Source: Terriglobia bacterium
GTDB lineage: Bacteria > Acidobacteriota > Terriglobia > Versatilivoradales > Versatilivoraceae
NCBI GenBank assembly: GCA_022452285.1
Contig: JAKUNG010000003.1
Span: 39,132 to 103,131, forward strand
Direction of reading: 5' to 3'
Length of the DNA stretch: 64,000 nt
The notes below the pieces were generated by a model, which saw only the letters and a list, made by a program, of their open reading frames with translations, made no database searches and was not told where the DNA came from. How positions within the stretch are numbered: the first letter of the stretch is position 1; every line of letters starts with the position of its first letter. Positions 10,727 to 27,215 of this stretch are shown here, piece by piece. The position numbers were made by a program, and so were the translations under genes.

Positions 10727-11092
10727 ATGCTACCATTAGACACAATTTCAACTCTTCCTAAGCTCGAACCAAAGTCAAAAGGAAAACCCCGTCCACGGAA
10801 GAAAAAGCCTCGAGAAATAGCAATTATAACTGAATGCTGCACGGGTTGTGCAGGTTCTCCTGCATGTGTGCCTTACTGCCCAGTGCCTGATTGTATGTTT
10901 TGGGTTCCTGATGAAGACCATCCTCCTTTTGGACATATTGAAGTTGACCCTTTTCTTTGCATTGGTTGCAAGAAATGTACGACCACAGGCCCCGATGATA
11001 CGTTCTTAGATGGCTGCCCCTGGGATGCTATTGAGATGAGGCCTTCTGAAGAGGTTGAAGCTGTGGTAGGAGAATTCGAGGTACCAAATTAG
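10727..11092 (+). CDS. 4Fe-4S ferredoxin-like protein
   Basis: A 121-residue soluble protein with a basic, Pro/Lys-rich N-terminus and two Cys clusters: CTGCAGSPACVPYCP and, after an acidic linker, CIGCKKC with a later GCPWDAI. The pattern indicates one, probably two, [4Fe-4S] centres. It sits at the downstream end of the respiratory cluster on the opposite strand, and its stop codon overlaps the stop of the HEAT-repeat gene. It may carry electrons, but the donor and acceptor are unknown. No signal peptide is visible, so it should be cytoplasmic. Confidence 0.8.
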   Translation: MLPLDTISTLPKLEPKSKGKPRPRKKKPREIAIITECCTGCAGSPACVPYCPVPDCMFWVPDEDHPPFGHIEVDPFLCIGCKKCTTTGPDDTFLDGCPWDAIEMRPSEEVEAVVGEFEVPN

Positions 11093-11931
11093 TAAGCAAT
11101 TTTACTTTTGATGGAATTGATGCTTAAGAAAGCTTGCTCTTGCACTCGCCTTGACAATTGGGAATTCGGTGTGAGAAATCGTTTTATAACTTCCAAGTCC
11201 TTTTTTTCACCAATAAAATACATAGCTCTCAAAGCTTCCCAAACTTGTTCTTCAGTAGGAGCAATTAAAAGTATAGGCTGACCTGCTGAAACGACTTCCC
11301 CATCCTGAATCATCCTCTCCTTTACATAACCAGGAACAATGCCGCGTACTGTTATCCACTCCTTACCATCTGTTTCAATGCGAGCTACCATGGCACCTGA
11401 ACGAACTGGGTCTTCTTTATCCAGACGGAACTTAATTCTTCCATCAGATGGTGTAGAAATTTCATGATTAAGTAACATCCCACGGATTTCTTTGCGTCCT
11501 CTCGAATCCTGAAATCGAACTAGTGACAGAGCAGCATTGCGACGAACTAAAGGGTAAGTATCTTTAAGAAGGTTTAATAAATATTTCTGGAAATTATAAC
11601 GCCCATCTCCCTGACCCATTAGCCAAGCAACTGTCATCCGAACTTCTGGTATTGGATGGTCAACCAATTGTTTAACTGCAGGAAACCAAACTGCAGTTGA
11701 AGATAAACCAGAAGCGGCTATCTTCTCTGAAAGTTGGGTTAGGGCATGTTGAATTTTTCGGGGCTTAGCACTTATCTCCAAACTCTTTTTTAGCTCCTTA
11801 TCATCCATCACACGACCAAACCACGTCTGCTGCCAAAAAAGAAATGGGACTAAAATAGTCAGAAAGACAACCAACACCGCCAATAGAGTGGTACCCAATC
11901 TAAGGTTATAACGACTTGATTTATCCACCAT
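11089..11931 (-). CDS. Membrane-anchored HEAT-repeat protein with embedded lipoyl-like hybrid segment
   Basis: A 280-residue protein, last gene of the respiratory cluster. An N-terminal membrane segment (about 14-33) is followed by HEAT-like helical repeats (HPIPEVRMTVAWLMG, TYPLVRRNAALSLVRF). A beta segment comes next (about 150-215), reading like two halves of a barrel-sandwich hybrid: STPSDGRIKF...DPVRSGAMV and RGIVPGYVKE...GEVVSAGQPILLI. This is the pattern of HlyD/MFP adaptor proteins. Another HEAT-like helix pair closes it. I know no defined function; an assembly or scaffolding role for the oxidase is an inference from position. It overlaps the ferredoxin gene tail to tail by 4 bases. 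Confidence 0.7.
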   Translation of the reverse strand: MVDKSSRYNLRLGTTLLAVLVVFLTILVPFLFWQQTWFGRVMDDKELKKSLEISAKPRKIQHALTQLSEKIAASGLSSTAVWFPAVKQLVDHPIPEVRMTVAWLMGQGDGRYNFQKYLLNLLKDTYPLVRRNAALSLVRFQDSRGRKEIRGMLLNHEISTPSDGRIKFRLDKEDPVRSGAMVARIETDGKEWITVRGIVPGYVKERMIQDGEVVSAGQPILLIAPTEEQVWEALRAMYFIGEKKDLEVIKRFLTPNSQLSRRVQEQAFLSINSIKSKIAY

Positions 11932-13082: not shown

Positions 13083-13397
13083 TTAAAGACCTAAATCCAA
13101 TATTCGAAGACTATCTGCAAAAAATACGGCCATTAGGGATATCGTTATTATCATTGCAGGCATCAATGTTAGAACCAAACTCCGCTTTTCAAACCTTAGA
13201 TGCATGAAATAGGCGATAATCAAGGCTGCCTTTACAATAGAGAAGCCCATCAAGAGTGTAAGCATTAATACGAGTCCAACTTGAACATAGGCTAGAAAAA
13301 CCTCAACGGCAGTCAAGACAAGTAACCAAGTCCAAACCGTTAGTACTAAACGGTTAGACATTGGGCCATGTGTACTATGAATGTTATCGTTGCTCAA
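13083..13397 (-). CDS. Cytochrome c oxidase subunit IV (CtaF-like)
   Basis: About 104 residues with three membrane helices, matching the small prokaryotic subunit IV of A-type oxidases: MSNRLVLTVWTWLLVLTAVE, then VLMLTLLMGFSIVKAALIIAYFMHLRFEKR, with the typical FSIVKA and YFMHL-E-R block, then a final helix. The likely start is a TTG at 13397, because GGAGG lies 5 bases upstream of it; a TTG four codons earlier overlaps that site. It follows the second subunit III gene. Confidence 0.8.
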   Translation of the reverse strand: MSNDNIHSTHGPMSNRLVLTVWTWLLVLTAVEVFLAYVQVGLVLMLTLLMGFSIVKAALIIAYFMHLRFEKRSLVLTLMPAMIITISLMAVFFADSLRILDLGL

Positions 13398-13427
13398 GGA
13401 TCCCTCCAAAAATAGTATTCACTGTTG

Positions 13428-14060
13428 TTAATCCATCTTTACTGATAACAAATAAACTAAGGGAAAAACAAACATCCACACCAAGTCCACAAAATGCCAA
13501 TACAAACCACAAACCTCAACATGATCTGAGTTGAATTTCTTCTTTGAAAAACCCCAAGCAATAACAAGAAGATAAACCACTCCTGTGAATACATGGAACA
13601 TATGCAACCCGGTTAGTCCAAAAAAAGTCGCCCCAAATAAAGGGGTGCCCCAAGGGTTTTTAGTCAATGTAACTCCTTCATGAACTAAGCCAGCCCATTC
13701 TTGACCATGCAAAATCATAAATATTATGCCACCTAAAGCTGTAAACAGTGTCCACAGCACTGTCCATTTTCGGTCATCCCTTTGAGCTGCATTTACCCCA
13801 AGCACCATAGTCAAACTGCTGGAAAGAAGGACAAAAGTCATCAAAGAAGCCATAGCTATGGTTGGCCACAAGTGAAAAGGCGTAGGCCATTCCGGAGTTG
13901 CTACCCTTAAATAGGCATAGGCAATAAGAAGCCCTGAAAATGTAAGTGCATCGGAAACTATAAACAACCACATCCCCAACTTTATATGGGGGATTGAGTA
14001 GGGAAGAGTTCCTCCACCCCATTCCTGTAATCTAGCTTCTTTCATACTGGAGTCTGACAT
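13428..14060 (-). CDS. ctaE: Cytochrome c oxidase subunit III, second copy
   Basis: A 210-residue, five-helix subunit III: IKLGMWLFIVSDALTFSGLL, PWGTPLFGATFFGLTGLHMFHVFTG and VCGLYWHFVDLVWMFVFPLVYL are the family hallmarks. It lies 6 bases downstream of another, divergent subunit III gene. A strong GGAGGTAA ribosome site precedes the ATG. Because two subunit III-like genes are adjacent, the pair may form a heterodimeric subunit III; this is inference. Confidence 0.88.
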   Translation of the reverse strand: MSDSSMKEARLQEWGGGTLPYSIPHIKLGMWLFIVSDALTFSGLLIAYAYLRVATPEWPTPFHLWPTIAMASLMTFVLLSSSLTMVLGVNAAQRDDRKWTVLWTLFTALGGIIFMILHGQEWAGLVHEGVTLTKNPWGTPLFGATFFGLTGLHMFHVFTGVVYLLVIAWGFSKKKFNSDHVEVCGLYWHFVDLVWMFVFPLVYLLSVKMD

Positions 14061-14066
14061 CCAAAC

Positions 14067-14678
14067 TTACCTCCAAAAAAATAATAAGATCAAAAGATAA
14101 ATCCATAACCCATCCATAAAATGCCAATAAAGGGCAGTGCTACTTAAAACTGCATCCTCCTGAGTTAGAGTCGAAGAAAATAGCCAAGACCTAACCGTCA
14201 AGTAAAGTAATGCTAAAATTCCTCCAAACAAATGTAAACCATGAACACCAGTCAAAAGATAAAAAAAAGAACTGTGAGGATTTCCTGCAAGGTAAATACC
14301 CTGATTCACCAATAGCTTCCAAGTCCAGAGTTGCCCTGCAAGAAAAGTTATTCCTAGTAAACATGTGACTGTTATCCAGTACTTTAATTCACTTGCCTTA
14401 GTGGCACGACGCCCTAGTTCTACAGTCAGACTACTAGCTAATAAGACAAGAGTATTAATCCAAAGAAAGTTTGGAGGGTTAATTGGTTGCCATAAATGAT
14501 TCGTTCCTCGCCCCAAGATATAAGCACTTGTAAAACCAGTAAACATCATCGAGATTGAAGCTAAGGCTAACCACATCCCAATCCTATAGTTCCTCTTGCG
14601 GGACTGAGTCACACCTCCCTCATTAGAGTAGTAACTAGCTTGATCACCTTCTTTGCTACTAACCAGACTGCTTCCCAT
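14067..14678 (-). CDS. ctaE: Cytochrome c oxidase subunit III, first copy
   Basis: A 203-residue membrane protein with the subunit III pattern: RIGMWLALASISMMFTGF, LWINTLVLLASSLTVELGRRA, LLTGVHGLHLFGGILALLYL and STALYWHFMDGLWIYLLILLFFW. It is clearly divergent from the next gene, so this is an old duplication rather than a recent one. The N-terminus carries about 35 extra hydrophilic residues. It follows ctaD by about 105 bases, the largest internal gap in the oxidase part. Confidence 0.85.
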   Translation of the reverse strand: MGSSLVSSKEGDQASYYSNEGGVTQSRKRNYRIGMWLALASISMMFTGFTSAYILGRGTNHLWQPINPPNFLWINTLVLLASSLTVELGRRATKASELKYWITVTCLLGITFLAGQLWTWKLLVNQGIYLAGNPHSSFFYLLTGVHGLHLFGGILALLYLTVRSWLFSSTLTQEDAVLSSTALYWHFMDGLWIYLLILLFFWR

Positions 14679-14783: not shown

Positions 14784-16553
14784 CTACTTATTCTTTTCAA
14801 TTGGTGGGTCTGTTTGCATCACAAAGTCTCTTGGAGAGCCAGGCACTCCATACTCATAAGGGTCATGATGAACTATGGGAATTTTACCAGCAAAATTATC
14901 ATGAGGAGGAGGTGAAGGAATAGTCCATTCCAACGTAGTACTCTCCCAAGGGTTTTCAGAAGCTTTCTTTCCTTTGAATATACTCCAGAACAAGTTCACC
15001 AGAAAAATTACCTGTGCCGCTGCTGTGATGAAAGCAGCAATTGAAACAAATTCCTGATAGGACTGAAGTGGTTCTAGAAACTTAAACTCTGTCGATTGAG
15101 CGTAGCGCCTCAGCCCACCCATAATACCCATAAGATGCATTGGTATAAAAATTGCATTAACTCCAATGAAGGTTATCCAAAAGTGGAATTTGCCCCACCA
15201 TTCGTTAAGCATGCGACCAAACATTTTAGGAAACCAATAATAGGTTCCCCCAAAAATTCCAAATAAAGCTGCAACTCCCATAATCATATGGAAATGCGCC
15301 ACTGGAAAATAAGTGTCATGCAACTGAACATCAATTGAAGTCTGACCTAGAAAAAGTCCTGTAATTCCTCCAGAAACAAAAAGGGAAACAAACCCGATAG
15401 CATAAAGCATGGCTGTTGTGAATCGAATTTTACCTCCCCAAAGAGTACCCAGCCAGTTAAAAGTCTTGATGGCTGAAGGAACTCCAATCGTTAGGGTAAT
15501 AACAGAAAAAATCAAGGCCGAAAGTGGGCTCAATCCACTTACAAACATATGATGACCCCATACAAAGAACCCTAATAAACCTATCGCAAAAATAGCCACA
15601 ACCATAGCACGATAACCAAATATAGGCTTACGAGCAAAAGTGGATAATAGCTGAGAAGCTACCCCCATTCCAGGAAGGATGGCGATATAGACCTCTGGAT
15701 GTCCAAAAAACCAAAAAAGATGTTGCCAGAGAATTGGGGATCCTCCAGAGTGCTCAATTACGGTATCACTCACCACTAAGCCCCCTGGGATAAAGAAACT
15801 CGTACCTCCTAAACGATCCAAAAGTAATAAAATTCCACCAGCTAGGAGAACTGGAAATGACAACAGGGCTAGAATAGCAGTAGTAAACCAAGTCCACACC
15901 GTAAGAGGCATTTTCATTAATGTCATTCCTTTAGCACGCATATTGAGAACCGTTGTTATAAAATTGAGCGCTCCCAGTAAAGATGCTAGGCAGAATAGGG
16001 CAATACTTATGATCCAGAGGTTTTGGCCCGCTCCCAATCCAGGTCCTGCTACTTCACCGAGGGCACTCAAGGGCGCGTAAGCGGTCCAACCTGAAATAGG
16101 AGCACCTCCAACAACAAAAAACGCCGCTACCATCACCCCCATGCTAACAAAAGTCACCCAAAATGAGAGCATATTCAATACAGGGAAAGCCATATCATGG
16201 GCACCAATTTGGATTGGAAGAAAATAATTACCAAATCCACCCTGTGGAGCAGTTGTTAAAACAAAAAACACCATTATTGTTCCATGCATAGTCATTAAGG
16301 CTAAATAGAACTCTGGTGTCATTGGTCCACCATCAAAACCTATAGGAAAAATCTTCTCTAAAAGAGGCCATGACTCATTAGGCCAAGCAAGCCGCAATCG
16401 CATAAGAACTGATAGCGCAAGACCTATAAACACAGCTATTAGTGCTAGAAAATAATATTGGATACCAATGATCTTATGATCAATGCTAAATATCCACTTT
16501 CGAAGAAAAGTGGTAGGTTCGGCATGAACCTCTGGATTTCCTGAATCAGACAT
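14784..16553 (-). CDS. ctaD: Cytochrome c oxidase subunit I, A1 type
   Basis: The catalytic heme-copper subunit that reduces oxygen and pumps protons. The 589-residue protein begins near WIFSIDHKIIGIQY. It has MTMHGTIMVFF (heme a ligand), WFFGHPEVYIAILPGMG (CuB His, the Tyr cross-link and the A1-type GHPEVY), GHHMFVSG, LHDTYFPVAHFHMIMG (heme ligands) and twelve predicted helices. The Glu in GHPEVY marks the K-channel of an A-family enzyme. A GGGAG site precedes the ATG. It follows ctaC and precedes two subunit III genes. Confidence 0.97.
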   Translation of the reverse strand: MSDSGNPEVHAEPTTFLRKWIFSIDHKIIGIQYYFLALIAVFIGLALSVLMRLRLAWPNESWPLLEKIFPIGFDGGPMTPEFYLALMTMHGTIMVFFVLTTAPQGGFGNYFLPIQIGAHDMAFPVLNMLSFWVTFVSMGVMVAAFFVVGGAPISGWTAYAPLSALGEVAGPGLGAGQNLWIISIALFCLASLLGALNFITTVLNMRAKGMTLMKMPLTVWTWFTTAILALLSFPVLLAGGILLLLDRLGGTSFFIPGGLVVSDTVIEHSGGSPILWQHLFWFFGHPEVYIAILPGMGVASQLLSTFARKPIFGYRAMVVAIFAIGLLGFFVWGHHMFVSGLSPLSALIFSVITLTIGVPSAIKTFNWLGTLWGGKIRFTTAMLYAIGFVSLFVSGGITGLFLGQTSIDVQLHDTYFPVAHFHMIMGVAALFGIFGGTYYWFPKMFGRMLNEWWGKFHFWITFIGVNAIFIPMHLMGIMGGLRRYAQSTEFKFLEPLQSYQEFVSIAAFITAAAQVIFLVNLFWSIFKGKKASENPWESTTLEWTIPSPPPHDNFAGKIPIVHHDPYEYGVPGSPRDFVMQTDPPIEKNK

Positions 16554-16617: not shown

Positions 16618-17409
16618 TCAGTACTCAGACTGTTCTTTCAGCCAACCCGCAAAATCCTCACCAGACATAACCATGAGAAAGCCTCTCATCTTATAATGTT
16701 GTATTCCACATAACTCTGCACAAGCAATTTCATACTCCCCAATTTTGAGAGCTTTAAAGTGACTTGAAATTGCCATTCCTGGAGTTGTATCTTGTTTAAA
16801 ACGGAGGGCTGGAACAAAAAAACTGTGGGTTACATCTTTGGAACGTAAAGTAATTTGAATATCTCGGTTAACTGGAATTGCCATTCGATTGAGAGTTACT
16901 ATATCATCTTCCGAAGCAGGGTCCTTTGGATCAACTCCAACCGGATTTAGTTGGTCATTAATCAATTGGGGAATTGTTCTTCCAAACTGACCATCAGCTC
17001 CGGGATAGCGAATATTCCAGGCAAACTGCTGTGCCGTTACTTCAACCTTGATGGCTCCTTCCGGTATCCCCTGCAAATGCAGCTGGGCCCAAACCTTTTG
17101 ACCCATGATTGCTAGAGTAACAAAAACCACTGCGGTTACCACTGTGGCTACAATTTCTACTTTGGTATTGCCATGGGTATAAGTTACTTCTTTATGTGCC
17201 GAACTTCGATATCGCCAAACATAGTAGCCAAGTATAACCTGGGCTAAGGTAAATGCGACACCCACAACAATCAGAGTATAGAAAAATTGATCGTCAATCG
17301 CACCACCATGCTCAGAAACTTGGGGTGGAAACCAACCCATTTGTCCTGAAAATAAGTAGATAGTCGCCAGCACAATAAGCCAAATAGTAACTGCAAAACT
17401 AATCGCCAT
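16618..17409 (-). CDS. ctaC: Cytochrome c oxidase subunit II (CuA, no fused cytochrome c)
   Basis: Accepts electrons from the periplasmic donor and passes them to subunit I. The 263-residue protein has two N-terminal helices and a C-terminal cupredoxin domain with the CuA site: the HSFFVPALRFKQDTTPGM block and C230AELCGIQHYKM, giving the full Cys-x3-Cys-x3-His-x2-Met set. No CxxCH is present, so it is not a caa3-type fusion and must use a separate donor. An AAGGAG ribosome site precedes the ATG. No lipobox was seen. Confidence 0.96.
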   Translation of the reverse strand: MAISFAVTIWLIVLATIYLFSGQMGWFPPQVSEHGGAIDDQFFYTLIVVGVAFTLAQVILGYYVWRYRSSAHKEVTYTHGNTKVEIVATVVTAVVFVTLAIMGQKVWAQLHLQGIPEGAIKVEVTAQQFAWNIRYPGADGQFGRTIPQLINDQLNPVGVDPKDPASEDDIVTLNRMAIPVNRDIQITLRSKDVTHSFFVPALRFKQDTTPGMAISSHFKALKIGEYEIACAELCGIQHYKMRGFLMVMSGEDFAGWLKEQSEY

Positions 17410-17465: not shown

Positions 17466-18455
17466 TTAAACAGCATTCCTATCAAAAACCATTACCGCAT
17501 AAAGCACCGGAAGGTAGACCACGGTAACATGCAGTAAAATTCTAGCCTGCTCCTTGGTACGTTGGGAATATGCTTTATAAGCAAAATAAAGAAAAGTAGT
17601 TCCAAGAATCAGTGAAACAAATAGATACAAGCTCCCGGTCATTTTGAACCAGTAAGGCACTAAGCTCACTAAAACCAAGGCAAATGAATAAACTAGGATC
17701 CGCCGGAACATTACATTTCCATGAGCGTCATTAACAGGAAGCATTCGCATACCGGCTCTAGCGTAATCTTCCTGATACATCCACGCAATAGCTAAAAAAT
17801 GTGGAAACTGCCAAAGAAATAAAAAGGAATAAAGTAACACTGCCTCTATCGAAATAGAAGCCGTTGAAGCTGTCCAACCAATTAAAACAGGTGCCGCTCC
17901 AGGAAAAGCTCCAATAAAAGTACACCAGCTAGATCTTGTTTTTAAAGGGGTATAAATCAATAAGTAAACTATGCAGGAAGCGAATCCAAAAAAACTACAC
18001 AACAAATTAACTTTTAACATCAAATAGGTTACTCCAGCCAACACAAACAATACACCGAGGCTCTGTCCCTCTATCGGTGACAAAAGTCCAGCTGGCAAAG
18101 GTCTTTGAGCGGTTCGGCGCATTTTAGAATCTTCAACTCTTTCTAGGCAATGATTTAGTGCGGCAGTACCAGCCGACAACAAAAAAACCCCAAGTAAAAC
18201 ATGGATTAGCCCTAGGGTACTAAAGGAAGGAGAACCCATCACAAACCCTAAAGCAGTTGCAACCAAAACCAAGAAAGTTACCTCAGGTTTAGCCAATTCT
18301 AGGTAAAGGTACATCCTTGATCTTTTCTTCCTTAGAAGCATTAAATCATCCTTCGTTTGGCCATGGTTTGATTTGAGTCCAAGAAGTACTGGAACCGAAG
18401 AGGCTTCAGCATTAACAATTCCACTCGCTCTAAAAACTTTACTACTCATTTTCAT
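17466..18455 (-). CDS. ctaB: Protoheme IX farnesyltransferase (heme O synthase)
   Basis: Converts heme B to heme O by adding a farnesyl group, supplying heme for the oxidase. The 329-residue protein has the prenyltransferase signature NHCLERVEDSKMRRTAQRPL and a second Asp-rich block (YQEDYARAGMRMLPVND), with about eight helices. About 48 N-terminal residues precede the first conserved block (LELAKPEVTFLVLV), longer than usual, so the true start may lie further in. The gene sits 4 bases after ctaA. Confidence 0.93.
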   Translation of the reverse strand: MKMSSKVFRASGIVNAEASSVPVLLGLKSNHGQTKDDLMLLRKKRSRMYLYLELAKPEVTFLVLVATALGFVMGSPSFSTLGLIHVLLGVFLLSAGTAALNHCLERVEDSKMRRTAQRPLPAGLLSPIEGQSLGVLFVLAGVTYLMLKVNLLCSFFGFASCIVYLLIYTPLKTRSSWCTFIGAFPGAAPVLIGWTASTASISIEAVLLYSFLFLWQFPHFLAIAWMYQEDYARAGMRMLPVNDAHGNVMFRRILVYSFALVLVSLVPYWFKMTGSLYLFVSLILGTTFLYFAYKAYSQRTKEQARILLHVTVVYLPVLYAVMVFDRNAV

Positions 18456-18459
18456 TCTT

Positions 18460-19386
18460 TTAGACCGTTTTAACCCCTAACTGAGGAGAAACTTGATAAT
18501 GGATTGGAATAATCCTAAAAGATTCAAAAATGATTATTACACCATTTGCTAAAACAAGGGCACCTAAAGCAACATGGGCAGTGGAAATAACCACCAACGA
18601 AAACTCAGGTTGTACAGCATTAGTGTTTATTAACCGAAGTACTAAAGAACCAATTCCTAGAAAAACCTGCACCAAAATCAGGACACCCATTAATTTGACT
18701 GGACGAATTAAATTTAAATATTTTCCTTTGAAAACGACATTAAATAACCAAGCCATCAAAGTTACAGCAACTAAGGCACCAAAAACATGGAACATTATTC
18801 CTGACTGAGTGTGTCTGAAAATAGCCCCTACTATCAACTGTATATAAATCGTTCCTGTTATTAAAATCGATAAAATCAATGGCTGTCGGTTTTGTCCACT
18901 TTGTTCGATTTTTTTAAGGCGACTAGATTTTCTTTCGGGTGCAGAAAGCCAAGCCAAACTTACGATCAAACAAAAAAAAGTCTGGGCTAAACAAGCATGA
19001 AGAATTGAAATTGACGCTGGCAAATACCAAAGTACTGTGACTCCACCTAAGATACCTTGAGTAATAACAACACCCAATGAGAGAATTCCCAATCTTCGAA
19101 CAACTTGACGAGAATCTTTTTTCCAAATCCACACAGCTAAAACAACGGTTAAGAAACCCACAAAGGCAGCAACCAAACGATGCCCATGCTCATAACGGAT
19201 GTTGCCTACCCATGGCGGGTTTAAAGAGCCATAGGAAAGCGGCCAATCCGGTACAGAAAGACCTGCATCATTTCCAGTTACCAAAGCCCCTACAACAATC
19301 AATAGAAACGTAAAACTAGCGGTAATAATAGCAAAGTAGTGATACCCCATATTAACATCACTACTCGCTTGAAATGAATGAATCAT
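18460..19386 (-). CDS. ctaA: Heme A synthase
   Basis: Oxidises heme O to heme A for the terminal oxidase. The 308-residue membrane protein has eight predicted helices and the conserved block GALVTGNDAGLSVPDWPLSYG near the N-terminus. The paired His residues are in YEHGHRLVAAFVG, ILHACLAQTF, IFRHTQSGIMFHVFGA and STAHVALGAL. ctaA and ctaB directly before the oxidase structural genes is a common arrangement and supports heme A as the oxidase cofactor. Confidence 0.92.
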   Translation of the reverse strand: MIHSFQASSDVNMGYHYFAIITASFTFLLIVVGALVTGNDAGLSVPDWPLSYGSLNPPWVGNIRYEHGHRLVAAFVGFLTVVLAVWIWKKDSRQVVRRLGILSLGVVITQGILGGVTVLWYLPASISILHACLAQTFFCLIVSLAWLSAPERKSSRLKKIEQSGQNRQPLILSILITGTIYIQLIVGAIFRHTQSGIMFHVFGALVAVTLMAWLFNVVFKGKYLNLIRPVKLMGVLILVQVFLGIGSLVLRLINTNAVQPEFSLVVISTAHVALGALVLANGVIIIFESFRIIPIHYQVSPQLGVKTV

Positions 19387-19485
19387 CAGAAATTAAACAA
19401 AGCTCTACTTCCTAATCAGTGAGACCAGATAGTGAAAGTGACAGTCTAACCCTGAAAGGGAGAACCATTTAGTAATCTTCAATTT

Positions 19486-20280
19486 TTAGGAAGCTTGTTT
19501 CAGCGTAAAATCAAGTTCCTTAGTATCACTAGCAGATAATGTAACTTTATGACTAGTGGTACCTTTCTTAAGAAGTTCGTGCCATGCACTGATGGTATAT
19601 TCACCAGGGGGTAGCCCTTTTATCTCAAAAGAACCATCTTCACCAGTTACGGCAAAAAATGGATGCTTGAGAACCCCAATATAACTTTTCATCCAAGGAT
19701 GGACATTACACTTAACCGCGATCATTACTTCTTCGCGAGGAAACTTTTTTACCTTTGGAGGTATTCCTGGTGCCATAGATTCATTCCATTCCCTATTATT
19801 TTTAGGAAGGGGATGAATATTGTGAGTTGTCGGGTCACTATTGAGAATTTGAATAGGTTGATTGGCCTGAACACCGATCATATGTGGAATATATATACAA
19901 CCCTTTTGGTCAATCACCGCAGGTTCTTTAGGTGTCTCAAAAACTTTATCTTCTAAGCCCTTTTCCACATAAACAAAAACATGCCTGAGGGTCTTGTTCT
20001 CATTAGGAACTACAACATTTGAATAAACTGGCTTGTTGTGAAGGGCTGCACAACTTGGTTCGGCATTCATATTCAGTCTCCTAGCCCTAGGCAGATCACC
20101 CTCGAATGAAACTTTACCTTTAACAGTAGCGGCTGTAGTAGGGTCAATTGTAGTAACCTCTTTAGCAGGAGCAGCTTCTTCAGCCTTTTCGGCAAGGTCT
20201 ACTTCTCCACCTCCACAACCAGCAATTGATAACATAAACAATGTGCTTACCAGACATAATAAATATTTCTTTGTACCCAT
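19486..20280 (-). CDS. Lipoprotein with cupredoxin-like copper site and carboxypeptidase-regulatory domain
   Basis: A 264-residue exported lipoprotein: signal peptide with lipobox LSIAGC (Cys22), then an acidic linker. A beta domain follows (about 55-215) with NSDPTTHNIH and, later, KCNVHPWMKSYIGV. The spaced His...Cys-x2-His-x2-Met set is the ligand pattern of a type 1 (blue) copper site. The C-terminal ~50 residues (GEDGSFEIKGLPPGEYTISAW) form a carboxypeptidase-regulatory-like beta sandwich. The gene sits between the cytochrome c and heme A synthase genes. An electron-carrier role between complex and oxidase is plausible but inferred. Confidence 0.75.
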   Translation of the reverse strand: MGTKKYLLCLVSTLFMLSIAGCGGGEVDLAEKAEEAAPAKEVTTIDPTTAATVKGKVSFEGDLPRARRLNMNAEPSCAALHNKPVYSNVVVPNENKTLRHVFVYVEKGLEDKVFETPKEPAVIDQKGCIYIPHMIGVQANQPIQILNSDPTTHNIHPLPKNNREWNESMAPGIPPKVKKFPREEVMIAVKCNVHPWMKSYIGVLKHPFFAVTGEDGSFEIKGLPPGEYTISAWHELLKKGTTSHKVTLSASDTKELDFTLKQAS

Positions 20281-20418
20281 GGTAAAACCTCTCTAAATAT
20301 CCAAAAATAATACTAATTAAACTCTAAGGTAGGAATTCCAAAAAACAAAAAGGGTTTCTATCTAACAGGGCTAGTAACATAGCATTTCTATTTCTGAAAT
20401 ACGAGAAAGAAGATACTA

Positions 20419-23400
20419 TCAACGACCAGCTACTTTAGTAGCACCAGCTGGCAATCTAGAGATTAGACGACGCTGTTCTGCAGACGTTAGCTGAAACATA
20501 TAGCGAACTAACAGTTCAGCATGATCCTTTGGATAATTTCTAAAGGCAGCTGGCAGAGGCCCTGCAAATACCCACCGGTCTCCTTCTCGCCGAAATAGTC
20601 CGGAAGGCATGGAAGTACCCGGAGCCATCATTTCAGGCATGACCATCCAACGCTCCGTCCACCCAGGCTTTAACCTTTCTTTGGCAAGCAAGAAATTTGG
20701 TGCAGTGGCATTGCGATCATGACTTGGATTCCCTGTTGCATGGCATCTGAGGCAAGGTGCTGCTTTGGAAGTAAACAACCCTCGTGCCATTTCTCGTTCT
20801 TGCTTACTCAGAGGCTCCATCTCAGTCGGGATATATGGTCTATTCTGGGAAGCCAGCGATTCAAAAAATCGAACAATCTTTCGAATCTCACCATCAGATA
20901 AATAGAACGTTGGCATACGTATCTGGAGATATTCTCGAACTCCATTACGGGCATTATTAGTCGGGTGCATCGCAGGATTTTTTAAAAAGCCTGCTAACCA
21001 TTCAGGACTCACTCTTGCTCCTTCACCGACTAAGGTTGGGGGTAGTTTTTCTTTCCCATCACCCTGATATCGTTCCATTCCAGACAGAATTGAATCTTGA
21101 CCAGGTTGAATCTGGTGACAACCCATGCAGTTGTATTTTTTCACTAGCCACCAGCCATCCCGAATGTCTTGACTACGAGTGTCAGGTTCAAAAAAGAAAT
21201 GTGACGGCAACGTTGAGTCAACGCTACCCAGTAGAAAAGTAGTAACTGCCGTGATTTCTTCTGGTTCTAACTTAAAATCTGGCATTCTAAGCTTTTCCAT
21301 TGGAGCCTTAATTTTACCTTGGTCAAAAATAGCAGGATTTTCTAACTTGCGCTCAAAAAACCCTTTATGGTTATACCATCCTTCATGTTCAGCATCGTGA
21401 GTTAACAGGGCAAAGTCAAGTCGTTCTATTGGCTTACTACCTTCCTTCGTTAATTCAGTCCCGATTCGTTGCTCCTCCTCAAACCCAGCAATCTCATGAC
21501 AACCGGCACAACCAAAATGTTGAACCAAAGCTCGACCCTCTTCCTTTAGCTGAGGATCATCTAAATAGTCAACCTTAGGGTAAGCTTCTTTTAGAATTCC
21601 CGGTTCTCTTTTGAGACTCATTAGATAACTAGCAACATCTCGGGCCTCTTGTAGAGTCAGCCTTAAGTTTGGCATAACTGTCATCTGTTGCACTTGAAGT
21701 TCGTGACCATCGTTAGGACAAACACTATTTTCTAAGTCAAAAACAAAAGGTAATCCATGTTTCGCATAATCTTCAGGGCCTAAGTCACGTTTTTCAAAAG
21801 CACAATAGGGACGGGTTCGTTTACGAGGATTGTGAATCCACCGAACCAAGTAATTATAGTGATCCTTTTCCCCAACCCTAGATAAATTAGCTGCAAAAAC
21901 ACCACCTTGTTCCAGGTCTCCTTCACCTATAGCATGACACCCGAGACAACCACGAGTTTCTAATAATTCCTGTCCTCGAACAGAATTTCCAGATGGTTGC
22001 TTTGGTAATTTTCCATTAACTCCGGACTGCCAAATAAAAGCAGAAATAGCATTGTTTTGCTGCTCACTTAAACGAAATGCAGGCATTTTGGTGCCTGGCC
22101 TGTAGGCATGTGGGTTATCTAACCAAACTGGAAGCCACTCTTTACGGATCTTAACTTTCACTTCTTTTAAACTCGGTCCAACCTTCTTCCGTTCCTGAAA
22201 TAAATGCTTTGACTGAAAATTTAACTGCTCCACTTCATGATCCAAATTAGTAATTTTTTGTCTAAGGGCATTTGCCTGGGCATAAAGACGGTTAGCTTCA
22301 TCATTACTCTCAGCATTGTCTCCCGCTTCGTCATCTCGAATAATATTTTTTTCCATTTCTTTGCGGTCAATTTCAAGCTGATGGATAGTTGACTGGACTT
22401 GTGTCAAAGCCTCCGATTCTGTGTCAAAACCTTCAAATCTATGGCATCCCCGACAACCCTGGTTATAAAAAATATCCTTTCCTTGATTTAAAATATCAGC
22501 GTGTTCTAGAACCAAATCTTTGCTGTGGCACTGATGGCAACCTGCTTCACTATTTTCTCGGTGAAATAATGGCCACAACCAGTGCTTATATCGTCCATGC
22601 CCTTTATTAACACCAGTAGTAGCACGACCATTACCATTGTGACAGGTTGAACACCCAAAACGTTCTGGATTATGGATCTTGAGAAGATCTCTATTAGGAT
22701 GGCTGGTAAAAGCAGCCTCACCACCCATATCCGCCTTAGTTAAGGTTAATGGTTCTCTGATTCCTAGGTGACAGGATTCGCAACGATCTACTAAATCAAC
22801 CTCAGCAATATGAATCTGTTTAATCTCCGACACAAAGGTTTTCATCTTGCTTTGTAGTCCTTCAATTTGAGAAGGACTTAAGCCTGACAACTGATCTTTA
22901 AAAAAGGTATCCCTCTTCTCTCTCAGTTCACTGGTGGGTCTAATTAATTCAGCTCTTTCCCTTCCCAGATCCCCTTTTCGTTTTTGAAGATGGTTGAATT
23001 CCTCTTCCAATTCAGAAAAGTTGAATTTCTCGATCTTCATAACTTGCTTGTTTGAAGACCCATCGGATGGGAGAGTTAGGCTAATTTTTCTAGTCTTGAT
23101 AGATTCTATTTCTTCGTTTAAACGGTCCTTTTCTTTCTGACTAGACGCTGTCTCTGAAAGGTAAACTAGAGCAGCAATTTCACTTCGAACAATAGCAAAA
23201 GGCTCCGTTATAATTGCTAAACGTCTTCCTATTATTGAATTTGTCTCGCGATCAATTTCAGACAGTTGTGGGCTAATTGATTCTTCAGCTTTTTTTATAG
23301 CCCTGTTTAACTCTTCATACCCAGTGTCTTGTAAAACTTTTTTTTCTTCCTTTGCCTGAGCTGGTTTGATGCTTGCTAAATGACGGCTGTAGAGGGCCAC

Positions 23401-23559
23401 AAAGCGTTTCTGATAGCTCTTCCAGGGTCTAAGGGTGTATGCCTCGTCGTAAACAGACCACAAAAGAGACAAGACCATTAAGACGGATGAAACTAAGAGA
23501 ATACCGCCCAAGGATTTGCTGACAACTGGATCTTTTTCGGTAGGGAGTTGTTCTGCCAA
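20419..23559 (-). CDS. Octaheme membrane-anchored cytochrome c with coiled coils
   Basis: A 1046-residue protein with eight CxxCH heme sites at about residues 259 (CESCH), 303 (CSTCH), 341 (CHQCH), 369 (CRGCH), 538 (CLGCH), 684 (CAGCH), 810 (CMGCH) and 935 (CLRCH). One N-terminal membrane helix (about 18-38) anchors it with the bulk in the periplasm. Long charged stretches (about 60-245 and 385-460) look like coiled coil. Met-containing segments such as GTKMPAFRL and LRMPDFKL are likely axial ligands. It directly follows the cytochrome b subunits, so it should replace cytochrome c1/f and carry electrons outward. The start is TTG with AGGAG 6 bases upstream. I know no named family for the full length. 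Confidence 0.88.
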   Translation of the reverse strand: MAEQLPTEKDPVVSKSLGGILLVSSVLMVLSLLWSVYDEAYTLRPWKSYQKRFVALYSRHLASIKPAQAKEEKKVLQDTGYEELNRAIKKAEESISPQLSEIDRETNSIIGRRLAIITEPFAIVRSEIAALVYLSETASSQKEKDRLNEEIESIKTRKISLTLPSDGSSNKQVMKIEKFNFSELEEEFNHLQKRKGDLGRERAELIRPTSELREKRDTFFKDQLSGLSPSQIEGLQSKMKTFVSEIKQIHIAEVDLVDRCESCHLGIREPLTLTKADMGGEAAFTSHPNRDLLKIHNPERFGCSTCHNGNGRATTGVNKGHGRYKHWLWPLFHRENSEAGCHQCHSKDLVLEHADILNQGKDIFYNQGCRGCHRFEGFDTESEALTQVQSTIHQLEIDRKEMEKNIIRDDEAGDNAESNDEANRLYAQANALRQKITNLDHEVEQLNFQSKHLFQERKKVGPSLKEVKVKIRKEWLPVWLDNPHAYRPGTKMPAFRLSEQQNNAISAFIWQSGVNGKLPKQPSGNSVRGQELLETRGCLGCHAIGEGDLEQGGVFAANLSRVGEKDHYNYLVRWIHNPRKRTRPYCAFEKRDLGPEDYAKHGLPFVFDLENSVCPNDGHELQVQQMTVMPNLRLTLQEARDVASYLMSLKREPGILKEAYPKVDYLDDPQLKEEGRALVQHFGCAGCHEIAGFEEEQRIGTELTKEGSKPIERLDFALLTHDAEHEGWYNHKGFFERKLENPAIFDQGKIKAPMEKLRMPDFKLEPEEITAVTTFLLGSVDSTLPSHFFFEPDTRSQDIRDGWWLVKKYNCMGCHQIQPGQDSILSGMERYQGDGKEKLPPTLVGEGARVSPEWLAGFLKNPAMHPTNNARNGVREYLQIRMPTFYLSDGEIRKIVRFFESLASQNRPYIPTEMEPLSKQEREMARGLFTSKAAPCLRCHATGNPSHDRNATAPNFLLAKERLKPGWTERWMVMPEMMAPGTSMPSGLFRREGDRWVFAGPLPAAFRNYPKDHAELLVRYMFQLTSAEQRRLISRLPAGATKVAGR

Positions 23560-23582
23560 CGATTTCTCCTAAAAATAAAAAT

Positions 23583-24518
23583 CTAAATATTAAACCAAGG
23601 TGTTATCCAAACATACTTAATACGAAACAGCAGTCGAGCCAAGATCTTGGCAGGCAAAAGCATCATCGATACCAAGAAAATTTGCAGGGTGACATATTGA
23701 ATCAATGTCATACGTTCATAAATCTTTCGATTAAATTCGTTCATAGTAAACAATTTATGAACTACAAACACCATCAATAAGGTATATAAACCAAATACAG
23801 CACCACCAAAGAGACTCTTACCCATCATGGTTGTTATTCCAAACATATCGGGTAAATCTCGATTAACTTCAAAAATCACCTTGTTGTGGTCCCAAGTTTG
23901 ACCAGGCCAAAACCAAATCCAACCTGGGCCGCGTATAAAGGTTCCAATGACAACCATCGATAGCCACAAGACAACAAAACCAAAGAGGAAGGCCAAGATG
24001 GCAAACTTTCGCTGTTTAAAAGTGTAATATCCGTTCCCTAAAGGATTTGCATCCATATAGGGAATTACCATAAGACCGACAAGAATCAAAGTGGGTAGTA
24101 CAACCCCAGCCATCCATGGATCAAAGTAAACAAGCATTTCCTGTAATCCTAAGAAATACCATGGTGCTTTTGATGGATTCATTGTCAGAGAAGGATTAGC
24201 AGGTGCTTCTAACGGGGCATCCAAAGTAATTGACCATACCATCAGGATAAAGGTAACAATGATGGTTACTAAGAACTCTATACGAAGGAGGTAGGGCCAA
24301 ACAAAAACTTCTCGATCCCAACCTTCTTTCCAAGGCTGAGTTTTGCGGTGGTGGGTTTTAGCTAGTTCCGGATCAGCATCTAATTGATCAATCAGCCGAT
24401 CATTTTTGAAGGATTGCCTCAATCCATACCAAGCATAAAAAGGTACAACTACTATTAACAACGTAATAGGTACATTATCAGGCAAAGTTGCTATTTGCCA
24501 GAGTTGAGCCCAATCCAC
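23583..24518 (-). CDS. Cytochrome b C-terminal part (subunit IV-like)
   Basis: The C-terminal half of a split cytochrome b, forming part of the quinol oxidation site. The 311-residue protein has an N-terminal helix and a charged loop. The block MNPSKAPWYFLGLQEMLVYFDPW follows, where the family PEWY reads APWY, then further helices. The start is GTG, with AGGAGG 6 bases upstream. It lies between the cytochrome b N-terminal gene and the octaheme cytochrome gene, 23 bases before the latter. Confidence 0.9.
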   Translation of the reverse strand: MDWAQLWQIATLPDNVPITLLIVVVPFYAWYGLRQSFKNDRLIDQLDADPELAKTHHRKTQPWKEGWDREVFVWPYLLRIEFLVTIIVTFILMVWSITLDAPLEAPANPSLTMNPSKAPWYFLGLQEMLVYFDPWMAGVVLPTLILVGLMVIPYMDANPLGNGYYTFKQRKFAILAFLFGFVVLWLSMVVIGTFIRGPGWIWFWPGQTWDHNKVIFEVNRDLPDMFGITTMMGKSLFGGAVFGLYTLLMVFVVHKLFTMNEFNRKIYERMTLIQYVTLQIFLVSMMLLPAKILARLLFRIKYVWITPWFNI

Positions 24519-24609
24519 TCATTGCCTCCTATATATCAATACTTTTGTTAAATAATTACCAAAGTCTTTATATTTATCCTTCAAAGCTGCAAGGTTGACA
24601 AACCTAAAT

Positions 24610-25518
24610 CTAAAACCTTCTCTCTTCTTTTATCTCTGAAGCAAGCACTACAGGAGCTGGCCCAGAAATCCCACCATCTTTACGGACTCTCCAAAAATGC
24701 ACGGCCATAAAAATTCCAGCTATTAAGGGAATGGCAATACAGTGCCAGATATAGGCCCTGAGGAGAGCATTAGAATCTACAATCGACCCTCCCAGAAGAG
24801 CAAATCGTACGTCGTTGTATGCAGTCATTCCCATTTCAGGCCCTAAAGGGCCTTCAGAACCTAACAGTGGAGTAGCACGAGCCATATTGGTACCAACTGT
24901 AACTGCCCAAAATCCCAATTGATCATCGGGCAATAAATAACCTGTAAATGACAGTAACATAGTGAGCAGCATCAAAATGACCCCGACCATCCAGTTAAAT
25001 TCTCGTGGTTTTTTATAGGAACCAGTGAGAAAAACTCTAAACATGTGCAACCAAACAGCAATGATCATCAAGTGGGCTGCCCAGCGATGCATATTCCTCA
25101 AAAGTTTTCCAAAGGGGACATCATGTTCTAAATAAAGAATATCTCGGAAGGCCTGTACTTTACTAGGATGATAATAGAACATCAACAAGACGCCGGTAAA
25201 AGTTAGTACAATGAATAAGTAAAAGGTAATGCCTCCCATACCCCAAGTATAATTATAGGCTACAGCATCACGGTTAACCTTAGAGGGGTGTAGATGTAAA
25301 AACACATTAGAAAGAATACCTAACGCTCGACTACGGGGTTTATCATCATGCTTAACCCGAAAAATTGATTTGTACAACTGTGTTTTTTCGGGTTTTTTGA
25401 GGGACTCGACCTCATTAAGAGCTTTGTCCTTTAGAACCTTAATTTCATCACGAACTCCCCCGAAAAACGTATTTGTCTTTCTATTTTCTTCACTTTGTTT
25501 TTTTTGATCATCTTCCAT
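24610..25518 (-). CDS. petB: Cytochrome b N-terminal part (cytochrome b6-like)
   Basis: The heme b subunit of a bc/b6f-type quinol oxidase. The four-helix core contains HRWAAHLMIIAVWLHMFRV and YIWHCIAIPLIAGIFMAVHF, carrying the paired axial His residues. The stretches GSYKKPREFNWMVGV and TGYLLPDDQLGFWAV are typical. About 90 hydrophilic N-terminal residues precede the core. The b6f Cys that binds heme c-n is not present at the equivalent place (NYTWGMGGIT). The ATG at 25518 has GAGGT upstream; the TTG one codon earlier is less likely. Confidence 0.92.
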   Translation of the reverse strand: MEDDQKKQSEENRKTNTFFGGVRDEIKVLKDKALNEVESLKKPEKTQLYKSIFRVKHDDKPRSRALGILSNVFLHLHPSKVNRDAVAYNYTWGMGGITFYLFIVLTFTGVLLMFYYHPSKVQAFRDILYLEHDVPFGKLLRNMHRWAAHLMIIAVWLHMFRVFLTGSYKKPREFNWMVGVILMLLTMLLSFTGYLLPDDQLGFWAVTVGTNMARATPLLGSEGPLGPEMGMTAYNDVRFALLGGSIVDSNALLRAYIWHCIAIPLIAGIFMAVHFWRVRKDGGISGPAPVVLASEIKEERRF

Positions 25519-25581
25519 CAAGCAACCTCTGAGCTAAATTCAGCTAACTAAGTGACCCGCAATTATAAACTAGTTAATAAC

Positions 25582-26196
25582 CTACAAACGAAGGAAAGCA
25601 CCAGGATCTTGAAATTCCGACCGCATACCTTTCGGCCAGGTAAATAAAACTCCGGTGTCCACAACAATCTGACCTTCAGCATCGAGTTCTACCTTGGCAC
25701 GGTCTAAGGGACGAGGAGCCGGACCTTCAAAGTTTACCCCTTCAGTATCGTACCCACTTCCGTGGCAAGGACATTTAAATTTGTTTTCACTTGGCTTCCA
25801 GTCTGGAGTACAACCCAAGTGAGTGCATGTTGCGTAGATTACAAAAATTCCCTCAGAATTACGAACAACCCAGATCCTGTGATCTTTTTGGAATTTAGTG
25901 TCTATCCCGTATCCAAAATCAGAAGGATAACCAATTCGAAAAACGGTTTTTGGTTCAAATAGAGTCCGAGGAAAAAAGAAACGCAGAAACATAAAAAAAT
26001 TTGTTCCTAGAAATCCTAAAACTAAAGCTGTTACCATCCTGCGTCGACGAACGATTGGACTAACAAGTCCGCCCTTTCCAAAAAACTTAAGAACTTTTGA
26101 AATAGTCCCTCCCTTAATTTTCTCTTCAGAAGTTACTTTAGCAGACTGGTCGCTAGAACTTCTTTTCTCTCGACGGCTGCCTTCAGAGCTTGACAT
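25582..26196 (-). CDS. Rieske [2Fe-2S] protein
   Basis: The iron-sulfur subunit that takes the first electron from quinol. It has a basic, Ser-rich N-terminus, a membrane helix (about 57-75), and the Rieske site CTHLGC (about 124-129) and CPCHGS (about 142-147), with two Cys and two His ligands and the disulfide pair. The ATG at 26196 was chosen since GGAG lies 6 bases before it; a TTG four codons earlier contains that site. It is the first gene of the respiratory cluster. Confidence 0.95.
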   Translation of the reverse strand: MSSSEGSRREKRSSSDQSAKVTSEEKIKGGTISKVLKFFGKGGLVSPIVRRRRMVTALVLGFLGTNFFMFLRFFFPRTLFEPKTVFRIGYPSDFGYGIDTKFQKDHRIWVVRNSEGIFVIYATCTHLGCTPDWKPSENKFKCPCHGSGYDTEGVNFEGPAPRPLDRAKVELDAEGQIVVDTGVLFTWPKGMRSEFQDPGAFLRL

Positions 26197-26798
26197 TCGT
26201 ATCTCCAAATTGAATCTGAAAAATAATTGATTTAAGTCTCTCTTGTGTTACATCATCTTTTAAGTAATTCTGGGAGTATTAACTAATACAAAAAATAATA
26301 TAAAGGCGACGAAATTTTATTTCAAAAATAGCTTTTGTCAATAGTCGATAATCAAATATGATCTAATGTATTGTTAAAACAAACAAAAATATTTAAAAGA
26401 ATAAATTATTTATCAAGGAAATCGAAAGAGTTATTTTAAGAGGATAGAATTTATAAAAACCTTACCTTACGGCTAAAAATAATATGAAATACTATCTTCA
26501 AAATATAACTTAATTCCTTCAAAAGTAATTATAACCTTGAACGCAAAAAAAAAATAAGATACTAAACCATTCTGATAATGACCAATGAAATTTTAAACTA
26601 ATGATTTGAAGTTTAGGGTTCTTAATAAATTATTTCTAGAACTTTTTGATTGATAATGATCTTTCTGTTCAAAGTATAATGGACGTATTGGTAGTGAACT
26701 GATACTATTCTTTCATAAGCACTTCACCTCTGGTTTAAAAACCATCCAACAACCGAAGGTACTACTCTTAATTTCTTTAGGGAAAGCAGGGAATTAGA
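26197..26798. other. AT-rich divergent intergenic region
   Basis: About 600 bases between the divergent Rieske and zinc-ribbon genes. Very AT-rich with A-runs and no credible reading frame or RNA fold. It must contain the promoter of the 15-kb respiratory cluster, but no strong motif was found on that strand. Confidence 0.6.
26650..26680 (+). promoter_or_regulatory. Candidate promoter for the zinc-ribbon gene
   Basis: TTGATA and TATAAT separated by 19 bases, about 120 bases before the ATG at 26799. The -10 is perfect but the spacer is longer than the ideal 17. Confidence 0.4.
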
Positions 26799-27215
26799 AT
26801 GACCCGAAAATATCGGCAACCTGGGTATCAAGATGAACAACCCGAAAAACGTCCGAAAAGAAAAAGATCATCAACACCTCCAGAGTTACACTCTAAACAA
26901 ATGCCAGGTTTTCAGGAAATTGCCCGCTGTACAATGTGTGGAGCTAAAGCCCCACATGATATCCAAACTGAAACACAGTGTTCTCAGTGTAAAACACACC
27001 TTCATAGTTGTCGACACTGTGTTTTTTTTGACACTTCAGCTCGGTACGAATGCACTCAAGAGCTTTCCGAGCGTGTCAACAAAAAAGATATTGGTAACAA
27101 TTGTAATTTGTTTGTTGCTAAGAAAACGATTGAACGAATGACGACTTCTATAAGACCAGCAACTCCAAAACCAAAAACAGCCCGTCAGGCTTTCGACGAT
27201 CTTTTTAAAAGTTAG
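26799..27215 (+). CDS. Cys-rich zinc-ribbon protein, unknown function
   Basis: A 138-residue, probably cytoplasmic protein. A basic, disordered N-terminus (about 1-38) is followed by CTMCGAKAP, CSQCKTHLHSCRHCVFFD, then CTQ and NNCNLF. The Cys/His spacing (CxxC...CxxC-x4-C-x2-C) suggests two zinc sites. Similar proteins with the ending ERV-KKD-x2-N-x-C-x-x-F occur in several deep bacterial lineages, as far as I recall, with no known role. AGGGA precedes the ATG. It stands alone beside the respiratory cluster. Confidence 0.75.
   Translation: MTRKYRQPGYQDEQPEKRPKRKRSSTPPELHSKQMPGFQEIARCTMCGAKAPHDIQTETQCSQCKTHLHSCRHCVFFDTSARYECTQELSERVNKKDIGNNCNLFVAKKTIERMTTSIRPATPKPKTARQAFDDLFKS

Follow-up and report, generated by a model that had tools for sequence, protein, structure and literature searches.

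An octaheme cytochrome c encoded with Rieske, split cytochrome b and aa3 oxidase genes in an acidobacterium: a probable b6f-like menaquinol oxidase

Whereas canonical bc1 and b6f complexes have a cytochrome c1 or f with a single heme, one operon of a Terriglobia bacterium encodes, beside its Rieske and split cytochrome b genes, a cytochrome c with eight CxxCH motifs. What might such a protein do in a complex of this kind? The operon lies in a 64-kb stretch of contig JAKUNG010000003.1 (hereafter the window), and the cytochrome gene occupies 20419..23559 on the minus strand, with a TTG start and an AGGAG a few bases 5′ of it; all features of the operon given below are on this strand. An earlier note, made from the letters of this DNA, had described a single 1046-residue subunit with eight CxxCH motifs, and both the coordinates and the motif count proved right. 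From the sequence, we consider it likely that the octaheme complex is a b6f-like menaquinol oxidase (complex III) that would relay Rieske electrons to an aa3 oxidase. In soil, Acidobacteriota rank with the most abundant bacteria. Respiration in many of them, the sampled groups among these, appears to run through an octaheme complex III for which no structure has been solved.

The eight CxxCH motifs, and no others, begin at residues 260, 303, 341, 369, 538, 684, 811 and 936. Residue shuffles with the composition of the protein gave a mean of 0.009 motifs and a maximum of one, which rules out a chance origin. All eight are invariant across 51 aligned homologues. In that alignment, the only invariant histidines outside the motifs are residues 287, 296 and 321, and the only invariant methionines are residues 492, 629, 759, 882 and 984. 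Three histidines and five methionines amount to eight distal ligands, as many as there are hemes. We infer that motifs 1–3 bind hemes of the bis-His type and motifs 4–8 His/Met (class-I) hemes. The three-heme module (22510..22812; CxxCH 260, 303 and 341, with His287, His296 and His321 as probable distal ligands) is recognized by Pfam Cytochrome_C7 as well as by its invariant histidines. The class-I domains that follow, each marked by its invariant methionine and by homology to the others, are domain 4 (22024..22497; CxxCH 369, Met492), which resembles domain 5 and is broken by an insertion described below; domain 5 (21610..21999; CxxCH 538, Met629); domain 6 (21220..21567; CxxCH 684, Met759); domain 7 (20845..21183; CxxCH 811, Met882), which Pfam also detects; and domain 8 (20485..20805; CxxCH 936, Met984).

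Once inserts are removed, these five C-terminal domains are mutually homologous, domains 4 and 5 forming the best pair (E 8e-11). The protein thus does look like the fusion of a multiheme module with repeated monoheme domains that the earlier note had proposed. Its division of the hemes into four and four gives way to three and five, because motif 4 (residue 369) is the first of the five homologous class-I domains. Tandem DNA repeats were looked for in positions 19000–27000, and none were found. Alignment of the homologues further delimits a loop in domain 5 (residues 582–623; 21691..21816) that contains Cys586 and Cys614. The two cysteines covary perfectly: both are present in 40 of the 51 homologues, neither in 8, and the loop is deleted in the remaining 3. 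Their joint retention or loss points to a disulfide, which we regard as probable. A sister genus (g2; loci L028 and L029) lacks the entire loop.

The coiled coils of the earlier note correspond to two helical arms. An AlphaFold2 (AF2) model of the octaheme protein, built from the 51 sequences, had a mean predicted local distance difference test score (pLDDT) of 75.8 and a predicted template modeling score of 0.62. It contains an N-terminal membrane anchor helix at residues 18–42 (23434..23508; hydropathy 2.16). Arm 1 (residues 45–240; 22840..23427) comprises long helices at 45–76, 79–137, 141–156, 181–223 and 229–240, with a beta hairpin at 159–179, and arm 2 (residues 381–456; 22192..22419) is a helical hairpin of residues 381–414 and 419–456. 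Most of these helices were predicted with pLDDT of 80–93, and in the model they look like helical hairpins or bundles. A counterpart of arm 1 is present in homologues throughout the phylum and absent from short paralogues of 690–740 residues, to which we return below (L034 and L035 among them). Arm 2 sits between the CxxCH and the methionine ligand of heme domain 4 and measures 78–79 residues in the 51 homologues. Other Acidobacteriota are without it, their motifs 4 and 5 lying ∼97–130 residues apart versus ∼169 where the arm is present. On a cytochrome b tree, which was made by a quick method and contains long branches, arm 2 appears as one change, that is, with a single origin. Long helical segments, as described in the earlier note, are thus supported by the model, and the account of the second coil has to be revised to that of an insertion within a heme domain, acquired once and missing from other Acidobacteriota.

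The octaheme architecture is well conserved. A scan of genome contigs supplied the best 80 loci, all acidobacterial by kinship, of which 75 have a complete octaheme gene; in every one of these 75, the gene encodes exactly eight hemes in one unsplit chain. A split protein, which the earlier note had named as evidence that would count against it, was thus looked for and not encountered, and a split gene, a frameshift or an assembly artifact is ruled out. Loci sampled across the phylum also had exactly eight hemes in 20 of 20 cases. A profile search of 199 phylum genomes detected matches with E ≤ 1e-30 in 60 of them, partial relatives included. Homologues in the family and class of the window organism are 53–67% identical to its octaheme protein, whose gene is single copy in the 3.24-Mb genome. 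Nearly all named relatives among the best 80 are labeled Acidobacteriota, and the closest kin are metagenome-assembled genomes of Bryobacterales and Terriglobia. A few carry the labels Acidimicrobiia, Bacillota or Aminicenantes, which sit badly with their close kinship to the rest. A genome-contig scan with the octaheme protein alone as query gave no match, nor did a plasmid search. A literature search, which covered few subscription journals, found no description of an octaheme subunit in Acidobacteriota.

The partners of the octaheme protein are those of a b6f-like complex. As the earlier note had seen, Rieske and split cytochrome b genes adjoin the cytochrome; they lie on the same strand, together with a subunit IV gene, and the gaps joining the four genes are 23–91 nt. 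The order Rieske–cytochrome b–subunit IV–octaheme is kept almost everywhere that flanking DNA exists among the best 80 loci, and it recurs across the phylum. The Rieske protein (25582..26208; Pfam Rieske) has the cluster motifs CTHLGC and CPCHGSGY, which carry both high-potential residues, a serine and a tyrosine. Its closest match in the PDB is 9rk3, the Kuenenia protein Kustd1480 (E 2.5e-42, 63 of 118 residues or 53% identical), compared with E 4.6e-25 for 9rk4 (Kuste4569) and E 5e-16 for b6f, so that by its sequence the window Rieske is of the Kustd1480 kind. Because of the serine and tyrosine, a high potential is predicted for it, as measured for Kustd1480 (+335 mV) and Kuste4569 (+303 mV) (PMC12954380). 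The cytochrome b (24610..25521) is of b6 type by Pfam and PDB comparison, with four hydrophobic segments and the spacings H-x13-H and H-x14-H. It aligns best with b6 and has a glycine at the position of the b6f heme-cn cysteine (alignment A2); its best NCBIfam match was ExtP, though below the cut-off of that family. The subunit IV-like protein (23583..24518; Pfam Cytochrom_B_C) has about six hydrophobic segments and APWY in place of the expected PEWY, within a stretch, KAPWYFLGLQE, that is invariant across alignment A3. A profile of this subunit had no PDB match at the cut-off, and a literature search for variants of the Qo motif found none. The complex therefore resembles canonical b6f in its split b6 and subunit IV, its H-x14-H spacing and its Rieske motifs, and differs from it in the APWY and in the absent heme-cn cysteine.

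That absence has a phylogenetic pattern of its own. The sequence TWGMGG occupies the heme-cn position of cytochrome b in 66 of 68 loci. The residue is glycine in the clade with arm 2 and cysteine in most other Acidobacteriota that have the octaheme complex. On the cytochrome b tree, the cysteine is one change, confined to one clade of sequences lacking arm 2; it is missing from the arm-2 clade, from the short paralogues and from the long-branched L151, and either gain or loss is possible.

What would connect this complex to oxygen is the rest of the operon. On one strand, with intergenic gaps of 4–138 nt from the first gene to the last, follow each other the genes for Rieske, b6-type cytochrome b, subunit IV, octaheme cytochrome, a copper lipoprotein, CtaA, CtaB, CoxB, CoxA, two CoxC and CoxD. 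The lipoprotein (19486..20280; lipobox IAGC) combines a plastocyanin-like type-1 copper domain with a CarboxypepD_reg domain, as judged from Pfam, alignment, AF2 and Foldseek. Its copper ligands His153, Cys191, His194 and Met197 are invariant, and its AF2 model (pLDDT 86) led Foldseek to plastocyanin, NirK and amicyanin. With a predicted cupredoxin fold and a His-Cys-His-Met ligand set, it is a type-1 blue copper protein as modeled. In 62 of 69 loci, no more than 1 kb separates its gene from that of the octaheme protein. The earlier note had overlooked this gene between complex and oxidase. Beyond it are the heme A synthase CtaA (18460..19386; Pfam COX15-CtaA) and the heme O synthase CtaB (17466..18455; Pfam UbiA, conserved in position). 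The oxidase itself consists of subunit II, CoxB (16618..17409), recognized by Pfam- and NCBIfam-level matches and by its CuA motif CAELCGIQHYKM, with no fused cytochrome c; subunit I, CoxA (14784..16553); two consecutive CoxC-like subunit III genes (13428..14678), a pair conserved in relatives; and a CoxD-like subunit IV (13083..13409). Oxidase genes are found in cis at many octaheme loci.

Gene content, the eight hemes, ligand conservation, domain repeats, the predicted arms, operon linkage, the copper site and the relation to Kustd1480 were all computed. From them we infer the direction of electron flow, the route through the hemes, physical contact with the oxidase and the role of the arms. 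In this mechanism, a membrane-anchored octaheme cytochrome c would replace cytochrome f or c1 in complex III of an aerobic acidobacterium. A Q cycle would oxidize quinol at the Qo site, one electron passing to the Rieske cluster and the other to the b hemes. The Rieske domain would then hand its electron to the octaheme subunit; the probable point of entry is close to the anchored module with three hemes. Tethered as they are, the five class-I domains could both relay and store electrons on their way outward. From there, electrons would leave to the type-1 copper lipoprotein (probably), straight to the CuA site of the aa3 oxidase encoded in the operon, or both. This route may replace or supplement a soluble cytochrome c. 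A structural part would fall to the two helical arms, which probably keep the octaheme subunit in position around the dimer and would carry no electrons. MqnA/D-family proteins (menaquinone) and CcmC/CcmF-family genes for cytochrome c maturation are both present in the window genome.

Several observations weigh against this reading. The quinone chemistry is uncertain, given APWY in subunit IV and no heme-cn cysteine in cytochrome b, and Foldseek searches with the full octaheme model gave no PDB match at E < 0.001, only coiled-coil noise. The genome encodes a small secreted monoheme cytochrome c and a second Rieske/cytochrome b complex (C3:36866-38994; L129, L135), whose PEWY-type cytochrome b is fused to two class-I heme domains; the octaheme chain therefore need not be the sole route to oxygen. 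Several genomes carry their oxidase genes at another site or on the other strand. Finally, the genome bin has a contamination of 7%; the octaheme operon, on its contig, matches the family.

Some of these points bear equally on a stricter arrangement, an obligate III–IV supercomplex in which octaheme subunit, arms and copper lipoprotein tie the bc dimer to aa3 and electrons stay within the particle, as in actinobacterial bcc-aa3. Operon linkage to the oxidase and the copper lipoprotein fits this idea, which the earlier note had entertained beside that of a wire across the periplasm, and bc–oxidase supercomplexes have been suggested for Acidobacteria from the gene linkage of bc1–caa3 superoperons (Trojan et al. 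2021, PMC8407424). However, the oxidase genes are not linked in every locus and the monoheme cytochrome is at hand, and we hold such a particle to be possible but doubtful. Eight hemes exceed the need of a single acceptor, and the octaheme chain might instead be a hub feeding several periplasmic acceptors (other oxidases, reductases, metals), with aa3 one among them. In many genomes the stretches covered contain no oxidase genes, and the distantly related Geobacter Ext cluster, to which the subthreshold ExtP match leads, uses similar b6-type proteins. Yet the neighbors that recur most constantly are the copper lipoprotein gene and genes for oxidase assembly, and the operon showed no reductase genes, which leaves the hub unlikely in our judgment.

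The Rieske protein raises another alternative, since its nearest solved relative belongs to Kuenenia Kustd1480-1485, a complex proposed to bifurcate quinol electrons and form NAD(P)H (PMC12954380). A complex of that type would send one quinol electron to the multiheme cytochrome and the other to NAD(P)+, and the window Rieske has kept the high-potential residues. But the 64-kb window holds no homologue of the NAD(P) oxidoreductase that accompanies the short paralogues, a lack that speaks against a Kuenenia-like role; the heme-cn cysteine is absent and the operon is wired to an oxidase. We consider NAD(P)H formation very improbable here. It is harder still to believe that an ordinary multiheme cytochrome stands beside bc genes by accident. 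Gene neighborhood by itself proves no complex, but the adjacency holds nearly wherever flanking DNA exists, in many acidobacterial families, and the same operon is reported for three other lineages (PMC3578206). An alternative complex III was rejected because its NrfD-like membrane subunit was not found: NrfD (PF03916) had no match in the window genome.

Octaheme bc complexes as such are already known (PMC3578206, PMC12954380). In Nitrospina gracilis, an atypical octaheme cytochrome c is encoded beside an iron-sulfur protein and split b6 and subunit IV, and Kuenenia and Methylomirabilis have the same operon (PMC3578206). The window operon shares with these the Rieske protein, separate b6 and subunit IV and the octaheme cytochrome; their octahemes are compared through this published description, and the portion considered mentions neither coiled coils nor oxidase linkage. 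The likeness to Kuenenia Kustd1480-1485 extends to the closest solved Rieske, a b6-like cytochrome b, a subunit IV with extra helices and a large anchored multiheme cytochrome with long helices. For the last, we compared our AF2 model with the published description of Kustd1485, which in an AlphaFold3 model has long helices that wrap halfway round the complex (PMC12954380). Unlike the Kuenenia system, the window operon encodes neither an NAD(P) oxidoreductase nor a heme-cn cysteine, and it adds the copper lipoprotein, the aa3 oxidase genes and arm 2. Actinobacterial bcc-aa3 is similar in outline, in that a complex III with additional c hemes supplies aa3, but its QcrC is diheme and its architecture differs. 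The acidobacterial bc1–A1 caa3 superoperons come from the same phylum and likewise cluster the genes of complex III with those of an oxidase; their complex is termed bc1, without mention of a multiheme subunit (PMC8407424). What stands out here is the oxidase-linked acidobacterial form, the inserted arm 2, the adjacent copper protein and the contrast with an NAD(P)H-type sister complex.

That sister complex is found in several genomes of the window's class, as a second, short octaheme Rieske/cytochrome b complex with 690–740 residues and eight hemes (L034:8553-17801; L035:3280-12019; L157-L165). A GltD-like NAD(P) oxidoreductase with 4Fe-4S domains lies beside the Rieske gene in 10 of the 12 short-form loci examined, with none at L158 and L166. 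Other usual companions are a small cupredoxin, a monoheme cytochrome c and a one-heme outer-membrane-like protein. The L034 Rieske scores somewhat better against Kuste4569 (1e-24) than against Kustd1480 (6e-20). These sequence features suggest that the short complex is an acidobacterial equivalent of the NAD(P)H-type complexes of Kuenenia. The window complex, in turn, is a natural counterpart of the Kuenenia complexes proposed to form NAD(P)H, with a closely related Rieske and another partner downstream. Set side by side, the two could show what purpose the octaheme arm serves and whether a high-potential Rieske working on menaquinol implies NAD(P)H production. As a bolder and quite tentative proposal, the window may encode a hard-wired III–IV particle unlike bcc-aa3. 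Each bc monomer would have a ten-cofactor arm (Rieske, eight hemes, tethered type-1 copper), braced by two helical hairpins and leading straight to aa3. It would derive from the same stock as the proposed NAD(P)H-forming complexes of Kuenenia, the oxidase replacing the NAD(P) oxidoreductase, and would lack heme cn.

Some minor observations complete the picture. At several short-complex loci (L034:16206-17801; L035:3280-4740; L158-L160, L162), a ∼500-residue protein with an N-terminal signal and one CxxCH (TSCSTCH..FPELNDFG.AFK) is encoded. It recalls Cyc2-like porin-cytochromes, with no Pfam or NCBIfam match, and might serve to connect the short complex with extracellular Fe(II) or some other donor. 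Contig C18 of the window genome (L136) carries caa3-type oxidase genes together with acyl-CoA dehydrogenases and, judged by eye, looks actinobacterial; because it looks like contamination, its oxidases were not used as evidence. Counts of promoter-like and terminator-like signals at the window locus equal those in shuffles. A sigma-70-like site with an 11/12 match lies ∼100 nt upstream of the Rieske gene. Near the oxidase operon, positions 11089-11931 encode a HEAT-repeat protein with a weak HlyD_3-type (biotinyl-lipoyl-like) middle segment, an unusual mix.

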